Part shown: in pieces, positions 1 to 9,373 of the stretch
Position numbering within the stretch: the stretch's first letter is position 1
How the letters are laid out: each line of letters begins with the position of its first letter
From: Odiellus spinosus
Taxonomy: Eukaryota; Arthropoda; Arachnida; Opiliones; Phalangiidae
Assembly (NCBI GenBank): GCA_963920705.1
Contig: CAWUCO010000271.1
Span: 451,940 to 515,939, forward strand
Length of the DNA: 64,000 nt
Direction: 5' to 3'
Notes under the pieces: model-generated
Database searches by the model: none
The model's input: only the letters and a program-made list of their open reading frames with translations
What the model was told of the DNA's origin: nothing
Position numbers and translations under genes: made by a program

Positions 1-590
1 TTTTATCCTAAAAATTGTATAGGAAACCCGCGAGATAATTTTACCCCCTTGTCCCCGGGCCATCGCGACCCTCCAATGGTCAGCTAAGGTTCAAGAATCT
101 TCACCTAACGCCCCCCAACGAACTACCACACCTTAGCCAGCGAACGCTTACAAAATTTTTCACATTGTGAAATAACAGGCCAAAATTTCACCGATGGTCA
201 TTCATCTTTCAGCAAGGACCAATTATCTTCCCACTATTGAAGCCTGGTTTTCTTTACCTATGGTATGGACCACCTAGTTTGTAGGCCCACCGAGGTTGGC
301 CCATCATGGCTTCTGAACCGCGGGTTGTTCCTACCCTTTTTTTTTTTTTTTTGACTTGGGGGTTCAACTACCTATCCGTCTATTTTAAGATCACTATTTT
401 TGATTAACAATTGATCGTGAGAAAGGTTCTTCCCATTTTTAGGAAAGAAAGATGTTCTCTTATTTCTATAGACCCAGATTTTCCCACCGAAAATATAAAA
501 TTTTACAAAGTCATATAGCAAGCCTCCGAAAAACGAACATTATTTAATGTTTAAATAATAATTATTAGTATAGGCTTAATTACCGCGTAA
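1..590. other. gene-free left flank
   Basis: No supported coding region is visible on either strand. The stretch contains a T homopolymer around 339-352 and is AT-rich from about 540. If the virus-like element has a left terminal repeat or a polymerase gene, it must lie here in unrecognised form or left of the window. I could not match these bases to the sequence right of the cluster by eye. Confidence 0.5.
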
Positions 591-700
591 ACAACAGCCG
601 CGAAACGCGTAACGCGACCGCGAAAAACCGCGCGCGCGAAGGGGGTGTGGACTGTCACCGCGAATCGCGATATAATACCTATAAAATTTCGAAATTAGAA
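582..700 (+). promoter_or_regulatory. putative late-cluster promoter with CCGCGAA repeats and TATA box
   Basis: A short CG-rich island in AT-rich DNA holds three CCGCGAA copies (598-604, 618-624, 658-664) plus related CGCGTAA motifs. It is followed by TATAAAAT at 680-687, roughly 30 bases before a plausible transcription start and about 40 before the first ATG (729) of the ATPase. The arrangement suggests the promoter of the collinear late genes. The repeats could alternatively be a replication or packaging signal. Function is inferred from position only. Confidence 0.45.
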
Positions 701-728
701 TCATTAGAGTTTGAGTTTTGGGGTTGTC

Positions 729-1349
729 ATGTTACGATTCAATCATCCTTCCGGTACCCTGGTGGTCGGTAGCTCCGGCAGTGGGAAAACTATGTTGTGT
801 CAGAGGATAATAAAAGAGCGGGCTTCAATGTTTGACCCCCCCATAGCTCAAGTGGATTGGTATTACTCTGTTTGGCAACCAATCTATGACGATATCAAGA
901 AATTAGGAGTAAATTTTTTAGAAGGGTTACCCGACGTATCAATTTATGATGGTTCCCGAAATGTCTTGTTAGATATCGATGATCTTATGAGTCAAAATTA
1001 ATGGGCGTTGATTGCGGATATTTTCACTAAATATTCGCATCATAAGTCTTTGTCCGTACTTTTCATTGTTCAAAATCTTTTTAATAAAAGTATCCGCGAA
1101 ATCTCGTTAAACGCGACTTATATAATACTTTTCAAGCAAACACGAGAGTTAAATCAAATCAATATTCTAGCGCGACAATTATGTCCTAGTAACTCAAAAT
1201 TCATTCTGGATAGCTTCTTAGATGCTACGTCCCAACCTCATACGTATATCTTATACGACCTTTCGCAAACAATCCCCGAAGAGTGGAGATTAAGAACGAA
1301 TATTTTCCCCAACGAAACTCTAACAGTATACACCCCCAGAAAACAATAA
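729..1349 (+). pseudogene. A32/FtsK-like genome-packaging ATPase, interrupted by one in-frame stop
   Basis: In Polintons, adintoviruses and related viruses this ATPase pumps DNA into preformed capsids. Counting from the ATG at 729, residues 14-21 are a Walker A motif (GSSGSGKT), and the hydrophobic stretch ending in acidic residues near 78-85 (NVLLDIDDL) is Walker B. An in-frame TAA at 999-1001 follows directly. The same frame then continues for about 115 codons with the family's FTK.SHH and QNLF motifs (sensor region). Both halves share one frame with no other damage, so this is a single nonsense change in an otherwise full-length gene of about 206 codons. It could be a recent inactivation, a stop read through in the source virus, or a sequencing error. 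A degraded second copy of the first half lies at 48.33-48.51 kb. The next gene starts 38 bases downstream. Confidence 0.88.
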
Positions 1350-1387
1350 AACTCTTCAGCCCCCTCGGTAATCCCATCATTAGTGGT

Positions 1388-7387: not shown

Positions 7388-7852
7388 ATGGAAGACACCC
7401 GTCTCAGATATGGCTCGTTCTTTGACTATCCCCACATACGCGTGTCGCAGTTGTTAATGGCTAAAGCCGGGTTTTTCTATCTTAACAAAGGGGGTGATAC
7501 TGTCGAGTGCTTCGCGTGCCACGGGAGGCTTCAAAATTGGAAGACCACCGACGATCCTTTATTTGAGCACAAAGAAAAATTTCCTCATTGCGCATTTATT
7601 CGCAGCATCACCCTGGACGGTGAAGGTAGAGCGGCTGACGGGCCGGGGAAATATCAGAAACCCTTCTGTATAATTGATGGACGGGCCGAAAACCACGAGA
7701 GCTACCACTTGAAACCTCCCGTCGTCAAAGAGAAGTCGATACCGGACAATCCCCCTTTTATCGCGGTCCGCGCTTCCAGGAGGGAAGTAGAAAAACTCGT
7801 ATTGGCATATCACGTAAAGATAATAATAAACAATGGGCAAGGTTCGTTTTGA
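7388..7852 (+). CDS. single-BIR inhibitor-of-apoptosis-like protein
   Basis: Residues about 5-70 form a canonical baculoviral IAP repeat: R..SF..YP at the N-terminal helix, AGF.Y...GD.V.CF.C, then zinc ligands with exact CX2CX16HX6C spacing (C..C in CFACHG, H in FEHK, C in FPHCAF). BIR domains bind caspases or IAP antagonists and block cell death; insect DNA viruses such as baculoviruses use them this way. There is one BIR and no RING finger in the 154 residues, so ubiquitin-ligase activity is not expected. The C-terminal half is unassigned. It has its own TATA-like element and overlaps the next ORF by 20 bases. It looks intact and sits beside capsid genes, so acquisition by the virus-like element is the simplest reading. 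Confidence 0.9.
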   Translation: MEDTRLRYGSFFDYPHIRVSQLLMAKAGFFYLNKGGDTVECFACHGRLQNWKTTDDPLFEHKEKFPHCAFIRSITLDGEGRAADGPGKYQKPFCIIDGRAENHESYHLKPPVVKEKSIPDNPPFIAVRASRREVEKLVLAYHVKIIINNGQGSF

Positions 7853-8078
7853 CGATTTTGTAACGACTTATTACGTAAGTTCCGAAGACCGGACAAATTA
7901 CGATATACGCGACGCCATGAGATTTCGGTACCGGATTAAAAAAACTGAGGTATTGTTACAACCTGTATTAAACTCTATGATATTTCGGTATCGTACGACG
8001 CAAATGGAAAAATTGCTAACCCCCCTCCTCTCTAACAGACTTGCTAAAACTCGCCCAAACATGAAATCATGGGGTTAA
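7833..8078 (+). CDS. small ORF with an internal 20-residue tandem duplication
   Basis: This 81-residue frame of unknown family overlaps the end of the BIR gene. It contains two consecutive related 20-residue units beginning MRFRYR (coded from about 7917) and MIFRYR (from about 7977), each ending in L..P.L.N, so a 60-bp unit was duplicated in frame. Conservation of the duplicated pattern despite DNA divergence hints at selection on protein. The units are basic and amphipathic. No function can be assigned, and it could be a chance frame. Confidence 0.42.
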   Translation: MGKVRFDDFVTTYYVSSEDRTNYDIRDAMRFRYRIKKTEVLLQPVLNSMIFRYRTTQMEKLLTPLLSNRLAKTRPNMKSWG

Positions 8079-8174
8079 ATTCCCACCCCCCACTACAATA
8101 CCCTAAGACCCTCGGTACGAAAAATCTTCCAATCATTGCCCTTCTACGATCAAAACAGCTAACACGGTCAAAAT

Positions 8175-8987
8175 ATGCTCTCGAATCGAAGCCAAAAACG
8201 CGGAATTTCCGACGGTCCATCGTCGAGCGGAACCCGGGAGCGAGGAATTATCGACGGACCACCGCGCCGTCAAAAACATCGCAAAATTGAATCGCCTAAA
8301 AAACTTAACTCGAGATTCCCTCTCGGTAAAAACTTGTACGTAACTTTCGGCCTGATAAACTACGATCGGTTCGAATTATTTATTCGCCGAGTCGACTCAC
8401 TGGTCGGATTCTCCATTCCTCTTAACGCCTGGGAAAAGCTGATGGAAAATTACGGGATCCTTCTCAAGGTGACTAAAACTACAGACGGGTCATCGTGCGA
8501 ACTATTTCTGGACGAACAAGACGAACAGTTCTTCTACGCCATGTCCGACAGCTCCGGGATCACATTCACCCTATCCGGGGATATCGACCAAAAATTCAAA
8601 ATCACTTGCGAAGAAGCGGAACTCCTCAAGGATGAAATGTGTCTCATAAACGAACATATTGGTATACTGAAATTAAACGCGAAAGCCATTGGCTGTATGT
8701 TTGGCGCCGTGGAAGACTTGATTGTTTCTTTACATGAATCCCTGTTTACTAAGAGCTATATACGCGGCAGCAACTCTTCGTTGGAATCAAGCGGGCAAAA
8801 ATTTGATGAAATAATCAATTATATTACGAATTACGTAAGCATGAGCGAAATTTTAAAGAAATTTAACGAACGGTTAGCCGCGCGCGAATGTACGTGTTCT
8901 TTAAGAGCCGATAATTTGTTTATGCTGGTATTCTCACAACGACGCAATCTAAAAGAAGCCTTGAGTTGTGCCATTAAACATTTGTAA
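8175..8987 (+). CDS. 270-residue accessory protein, possible PC4-like N-terminal domain
   Basis: A basic, Arg/Ser-rich leader (about residues 1-47, with two similar RGI.DGP motifs) precedes FPLGKNLYVTFGLINYDRFE..IRR...IPL..WEKL. That pattern resembles the PC4/p15 transcriptional-coactivator fold, a single-stranded-DNA-binding domain seen in some Polinton-related elements. The remaining 160 residues are mixed helices with a Cys pair (CTCS) near the end and are unassigned. The frame is long and intact, starts at an ATG 96 bases after the preceding ORF and is followed by AT-rich DNA. The PC4 link is tentative. Confidence 0.62.
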   Translation: MLSNRSQKRGISDGPSSSGTRERGIIDGPPRRQKHRKIESPKKLNSRFPLGKNLYVTFGLINYDRFELFIRRVDSLVGFSIPLNAWEKLMENYGILLKVTKTTDGSSCELFLDEQDEQFFYAMSDSSGITFTLSGDIDQKFKITCEEAELLKDEMCLINEHIGILKLNAKAIGCMFGAVEDLIVSLHESLFTKSYIRGSNSSLESSGQKFDEIINYITNYVSMSEILKKFNERLAARECTCSLRADNLFMLVFSQRRNLKEALSCAIKHL

Positions 8988-9373
8988 TAACTTTGATTAA
9001 AAAATTGATTTTTGTGAGACTTTGTCTTTGAAACTGTGATTTTTATTTATGTTGAAGCCGATTTTAAGCCTATCTTTTTCTAGCCGCAGACCTACAGGGG
9101 TTGGTATAGCTGAAGCCGATTTTAAAACTTTTTCTAGCCTCTAGATCGAGACACAGTAGAAGCCGTAGGGTACCGGAACGCTACCCGTTGGCAGATTTTA
9201 GGGGGCCGGTAAGGGGGGCGAGAGTGCTCCCTGTTGGCGGACTCCAGGAGGGGGAAGGGGGAAAAGCTGTTGACGGATTTTAAGGGGGGAGGGGGGGGGG
9301 TGAAATTTGTAGGGGTGGAGGAAAAGGGGGAAGCACGGAAATCTCGCTCTGCCAATGGGTAGCCCCTTCTCTG
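8988..9373. other. non-coding right flank of the virus-like cluster
   Basis: No gene is visible. A motif GAAGCCGATTTTAA occurs twice (near 9053 and 9108), each followed by CTTTTTCTAGCC. Then comes a G-rich stretch (9170-9330) with a near-uninterrupted G run around 9286-9300. The right border of the element probably lies in or near this segment, but I cannot place it. Confidence 0.45.

Follow-up and report, generated by a model that had tools for sequence, protein, structure and literature searches.

A probable decayed virus of the Polinton/adintovirus type with overlapping BIR and GADD34-like genes

The first 9 kb of a 64,000-nucleotide stretch of Odiellus spinosus DNA (contig CAWUCO010000271.1; the whole stretch is referred to as the window) probably represent a decayed, integrated copy of a DNA virus of the Polinton/adintovirus type, in which two accessory genes, encoding a BIR protein and a GADD34-like protein, would form a pair directed against host responses. 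This assignment best explains the sequences, the domains, the modeled capsid fold and the overlap between the two genes, and it would imply that the pair arrived with the virus, is expressed, and has the expected biochemical functions in an insect-like host. In a mechanically compiled list of open reading frames (ORFs), a single run of + strand frames extends across 711–8987; several overlap, and the gaps are shorter than 400 bases, in agreement with the collinear, overlapping gene block described in an original prediction made from the nucleotide letters. That account did not include the GADD34-like ORF at 7833–8078, the broken ATPase frame or the lack of a recognized PolB.

Descent from a particle-forming virus of the Polinton/adintovirus type is well supported by the capsid fold, the chromodomain integrase and the adenain-like protease, in line with the particle-forming ancestor proposed originally. 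A double-jelly-roll major capsid protein (MCP), an rve integrase and an adenain-like protease thus occur together, which is the combination that marks Polinton/Maverick elements. The integrase (2457–3557, +) is a DDE enzyme with a C-terminal chromodomain, as shown by matches above the curated cut-offs to the Pfam families PF00665 (rve, expectation value (E) 3.1e-8) and PF00385 (chromodomain, E 3.4e-6), and by the catalytic residues D82, D142 and E177, with a spacing of 35 between the last two. PHROGs and NCBIfam were each searched with eight proteins, two of which gave matches in either database; the integrase matches transposases in PHROGs, and transposase families in NCBIfam below the cut-off (best E 1e-12). 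The protease (6043–6486, +), the frame of which overlaps that of the MCP, matches the adenovirus endoprotease family PF00770 above the cut-off (E 4.1e-5), so that the adenain-like assignment stands. Its matches in the PDB are weak, the first being the S273R protease of African swine fever virus (ASFV) at E 0.14.

As for the MCP (4755–6086, +), the sequence gives little: the Pfam double jelly-roll domain is recognized only weakly (E 0.041), and no match was obtained with the profile against PDB sequences or with tblastn against phage records. A search of 5.8 billion proteins yielded 4548 candidates, including 25 homologues at E<=1e-3, the nearest being 65% identical, and none of the 25 carries a capsid name. 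The AlphaFold2 model, based on an alignment of the 25 homologues and the query, has a mean predicted local confidence (pLDDT) of 84.5 and gives 213 Foldseek matches in the PDB at E<=0.001, with a best E of 5.9e-15. The best 50 of these 213 matches are viral capsids of the double-jelly-roll type, among them those of PBCV-1, Sputnik, iridovirus, Faustovirus and mavirus. On the basis of the modeled fold, ORF 4755–6086 is therefore identified as a double-jelly-roll MCP, in line with its original label. When predicted viral structures are searched, an uncharacterized Cotesia sesamiae bracovirus protein ranks first (31% identity and E 2.2e-37, with a low TM-score of 0.39), and adomavirus proteins come next. 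The last approximately 22 residues have pLDDT values below 50 and do not align with the relatives; since they fit neither the relatives nor the fold, the C-terminus of the MCP may be damaged in this copy.

The frame at 711–1349 (+) is ATPase-like: it contains a Walker A motif (768) and, farther on, the stretch LLDIDD (966). It is interrupted by an in-frame stop at 999–1001 and resumes in the same frame from 1008, and the gene is consequently broken in this copy. The ATPase piece gives weak matches to P-loop families in PHROGs. Because no Pfam family reaches its cut-off, a role as packaging ATPase is suggested by the motifs and the position of the frame. A second, decayed ATPase fragment is found at 48333–48504 (+), with 83% DNA identity over 114 bases to 827–940 and an internal stop, and the element family has therefore probably inserted more than once. 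The 242-residue ORF at 3526–4254 (+) had been labeled penton-like, for which no support was obtained: there is no match in Pfam, none in the PDB at E<=10, and a single-sequence model failed (pLDDT 31.9). Taken together, the integrase, protease, MCP and BIR genes of the original prediction hold, the penton is not confirmed, and the packaging ATPase is retained as a set of motifs in a stopped frame.

The BIR frame (7388–7852, +) is uninterrupted and encodes a 154-residue, single-BIR protein similar to inhibitors of apoptosis (IAPs). The domain is matched in Pfam above the cut-off (PF00653, E 3e-18), and the zinc ligand pattern CX2CX16HX6C noted originally starts at residue 41. The only cysteines are 41, 44, 68 and 94, where the first three are ligands and Cys94 lies outside the ligand set; no RING pattern was found in the protein. 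Eighty-two PDB sequences are matched, and among the best 60 of these the BIR domains of NAIP come first, followed by BIRC2 and BIRC7. A homologue search gave none from 17 candidates; this result is of little weight, since such proteins are abundant and the method depends on shared five-residue words. Based on family and context, an action against apoptosis is plausible: the protein would bind caspases or IAP antagonists, whereby the infected cell would be kept alive. Upstream of the gene, at 7209–7353, there are two similar promoter-like stretches in which TTTTGAAAYTACTTCAT is followed by TAAATRCTATAAGCCT, repeated 82–84 bases apart.

The next frame (7833–8078, +) begins within the final part of the BIR gene, and its 81-residue product resembles the core of PPP1R15/GADD34, which binds protein phosphatase 1 (PP1). 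The best of 24736 Pfam families is PF10488 (PP1c_bdg; E 8.4e-4, profile positions 171–218 of 230), and in the PDB no more than two matches reach E<=1, both of them PPP1R15B chains (E 0.12 and 0.15, the former not significant alone). A PP1-binding motif of the RVxF type (KVRF) and the conserved core that follows it are present with one three-residue gap, and the alignment with PPP1R15B retains KVxF, a tyrosine pair at the exact distance, EDR, and thereafter RD..RF..RI..TE. The local alignment score is 64, a value reached by 0 of 20000 shuffled sequences (mean 20.1, standard deviation 3.7, maximum 44), and the ORF scores best of the 598 stop-to-stop frames of at least 40 residues in the window, the next reaching 37; this test was made after the match had been seen, and against the matched protein, and hence shows how strong the resemblance is, but does not amount to an unbiased search. 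Of 10 starts examined, those of the ATPase, MCP, 6647 and BIR frames have TATA-like sites in the preceding 120 bases and that of the 81-residue ORF has none, a pattern that would be compatible with a transcript shared by the BIR and GADD34-like genes. The 81-residue protein would bind PP1 through KVRF and the residues following it, and the bound PP1 would be steered to phosphorylated eIF2-alpha so that translation continues.

The KVxF motif, tyrosine pair, EDR and the subsequent stretch are common to the 81-residue ORF, PPP1R15A/GADD34, PPP1R15B/CReP and the viral cores of herpes simplex virus 1 and an insect granulovirus. In the available text of PMC4394352, the viral PPP1R15 versions, including the insect granulovirus sequence among those aligned, are conserved in the core stretch, and fragments confined to the conserved core (human PPP1R15B 631–700, or mouse PPP1R15A) are sufficient to dampen the cellular stress response. 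With its core-only size, the ORF resembles these pared-down viral versions (PMC4394352, as far as available). It differs from the family by lacking a counterpart to human W662 and by a score under the Pfam cut-off. Owing to the latter, the ORF is described as working like a PPP1R15 core, and is not filed as a member of the family.

With the GADD34-like ORF, the anti-apoptosis gene no longer stands alone but likely forms part of a pair of host-response genes, and the interpretation of the accessory genes as directed against the host gains strength from this second gene. According to the portions of PMC5618007 used here, A224L of ASFV is an IAP in which one BIR occurs without a canonical RING, and DP71L is GADD34-like with a short form of 71–72 residues. 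A single-BIR IAP that lacks a canonical RING and a PPP1R15-like protein of about 70 residues are thus found in one virus, as in the element (same portions of PMC5618007), which, judging from its sequence, seems to carry an ASFV-like pair of an IAP and an eIF2-alpha phosphatase recruiter. In contrast to the element, ASFV is a large virus with mainly cytoplasmic replication, and A224L has a C-terminal four-cysteine zinc finger where the BIR protein of the element has a single cysteine outside the ligands. The overlap between the IAP and GADD34-like genes is a feature of the element, and is not described for ASFV in the consulted portions of PMC5618007.

Two of the alternatives that must be weighed concern the functions of the pair. 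Some BIR proteins serve in signaling or cell-cycle control, and a role of this kind rather than a block of caspases is not very likely for the BIR protein described here, despite the ranking of NAIP domains as best PDB matches and the lack of a RING. The evidence from ASFV A224L, within the accessible part of PMC5618007, points both ways: deletion of the gene gave no clear phenotype, whereas expression of A224L, which is also single-BIR and RING-less, suppressed both cell death and the activity of caspase 3. The other alternative leaves the element as described, with the BIR gene alone countering the host and the 81-residue frame a chance resemblance to PPP1R15. Several observations speak for it and weigh against the pair: the PF10488 score is 19.5 bits, below the curated cut-off of 26.1; two unrelated DUF families are also matched weakly (E 0.02 and 0.057); the PDB E of 0.12 and the post hoc nature of the score test have been noted above; and the counterpart of W662, the last human PPP1R15B residue traced in the complex with PP1 (PMC4394352, in the text available), falls in the three-residue gap and is missing. 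Chance is nevertheless distinctly improbable, as Pfam and the PDB independently rank the same family first, the 20000 shuffles and the 597 other frames fall clearly short, and the conserved residues appear in the known order KVxF, YY, EDR and RD..RF..RI..TE.

A third alternative concerns membership rather than function, and would place the end of the element near 6.5 kb, after the protease, with the BIR gene and the following ORFs belonging to adjoining host DNA or other mobile DNA. It draws on a right end without terminal repeats, on the deviating ORF of 121 residues at 6647–7012 (+; no assigned function) between the protease and BIR genes, the third-position GC content (GC3) of which is 0.81 as compared with 0.37–0.55 elsewhere in the element, on a BIR GC3 of 0.55 that exceeds the 0.37–0.47 of the genes up to the protease, and on the 270-residue ORF at 8175–8987 (+), for which no relative was found. 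We regard this alternative as unlikely, since four uninterrupted frames on the same strand follow in a row, tightly packed and with the overlap between the BIR and 81-residue ORFs; the GC3 values of the 81-residue ORF (0.43) and the last ORF (0.49) are near those of the virion genes; and the GADD34-like frame is limited to the core, like viral versions. ORF 6647–7012, which is preceded by TATATAA at 6568, is perhaps a recent capture.

The GC content per kb, which is 0.41–0.49 up to 9 kb and 0.34–0.38 from 9 to 13 kb, speaks for placing the pair inside the element, but composition is a weak argument because GC climbs again at 13–15 kb. Other observations weigh against such a placement. ORF 8175–8987, which might have anchored the accessory block, gave no homologues from 381 candidates, and its one match in NCBIfam is at chance level. 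Polinton/Maverick elements are defined by terminal inverted repeats and a target-site duplication. Terminal inverted repeats were not found in a repeat search of 1–30000, in comparisons of 1–1000 and 6401–16000 with the window, or in a short-word comparison of 401–720 with 6481–12300. A 12-base inverted match between 567–578 and 11969–11980, joint best in the short-word comparison, lacks a target-site duplication and was taken as chance. PolB was not seen in the 24 ORFs scanned, namely 14 encoded in the first 9 kb, of which one is antisense, and 10 taken from the 45 of at least 90 residues that are listed at or beyond 8 kb. The left end of the element may lie outside the window, and PolB could be located to the left of the window, in frames outside the 24 ORFs scanned, or have been lost. 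No second copy of the BIR/GADD34-like pair was seen, and scans of viral contigs for relatives elsewhere found no locus. With no PolB in the scanned ORFs and no terminal repeats found, the right boundary is tentative, and the position of the pair within the element is accordingly probable rather than established.

Compared with adintoviruses (meldviruses), the definition of which includes an rve integrase with a C-terminal chromodomain (PMC11071296, in the text available), the element shares this integrase, the adenain-like protease and a capsid protein of the hexon type (same source and extent). A PolB with an N-terminal OTU-like domain belongs to the definition of adintoviruses; none was seen among the 24 ORFs scanned here. 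Adintovirus hexons are reciprocally recognizable by BLASTp; the MCP of the element has 25 unnamed homologues, and its fold agrees. The BIR/GADD34-like pair is not named in the available text of PMC11071296. Similarities are also noted to parasitoid-wasp bracovirus loci with Maverick/Polinton genes, the Cotesia sesamiae bracovirus protein being the top-ranking viral model for the MCP. The Glyptapanteles bracovirus provirus is reported to adjoin a Maverick-like gene array without terminal repeats, and neither a BIR nor a GADD34-like gene is mentioned for it in the accessible sections of PMC2646287.

An anti-apoptosis gene in a virus of this kind is not new in kind. No publication linking Polintons or adintoviruses to IAP or GADD34 genes was found in the literature searched, which is not proof of absence. 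A broader proposition, to which we attach about even weight, is that insect viruses of the Polinton/adintovirus type carry a compact, overlapping cassette of a single-BIR IAP and a GADD34-like core that blocks cell suicide and the translation shutoff through eIF2-alpha, converging on the pair of ASFV. As we see it, it is an open question if insect Polintons behave as transposons or as viruses that spread between cells and hosts, and a capsid gene alone does not decide it. Two genes whose presence is best understood as part of a conflict with the infected cell would favor a viral lifestyle, and the cassette, if real, would mark the lineage as a truly infectious virus under antiviral pressure from the host, and not a transposon. 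Should the pair recur, small viruses would have reached the same answer as a large one, namely an IAP together with an eIF2-alpha phosphatase recruiter. Each gene predicts a simple assay, that is, caspase block for the BIR protein and recruitment of PP1 for the GADD34-like protein.

The remaining ORFs of the element (all +) have no Pfam match: a basic 155-residue protein with a hydrophobic C-terminus (1283–1750), a 218-residue protein (1808–2464) and a basic 146-residue protein (4266–4706). The product of ORF 8175–8987 could conceivably be a PC4-like DNA-binding protein. Immediately after this ORF, at 9053–9139, TGAAGCCGATTTTAA occurs twice exactly, each time followed by CTTTTTCTAGCC; AAGCCGAT is also present at 7246, 45013 and 49621.

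Farther along, the window contains a Myb/SANT protein (18194–18634, +) and a DDE_Tnp_4 transposase fragment (24886–25218, -), both identified by their Pfam families and in a combination that we take to be that of Harbinger transposons, as well as a reverse transcriptase with an endonuclease domain. Judging from the transposase, Myb/SANT and reverse transcriptase genes, the window gives the impression of a eukaryotic genome with abundant mobile elements. A large imperfect palindrome at 12271–14714 has arms of about 1.1 kb that are 89% identical, and encloses a frame (13553–13876) that appears mariner-like by eye and has no Pfam match. Near-identical direct repeats (98–99%) are located at 15618–16298 and 26609–27263, about 11 kb apart. 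At the right end of the window (63420–64000), and again at 55997–56772, there is a tandem repeat that can be read in several frames, for example as GGSLSPRLVVPSPRDWWFPLPEI.

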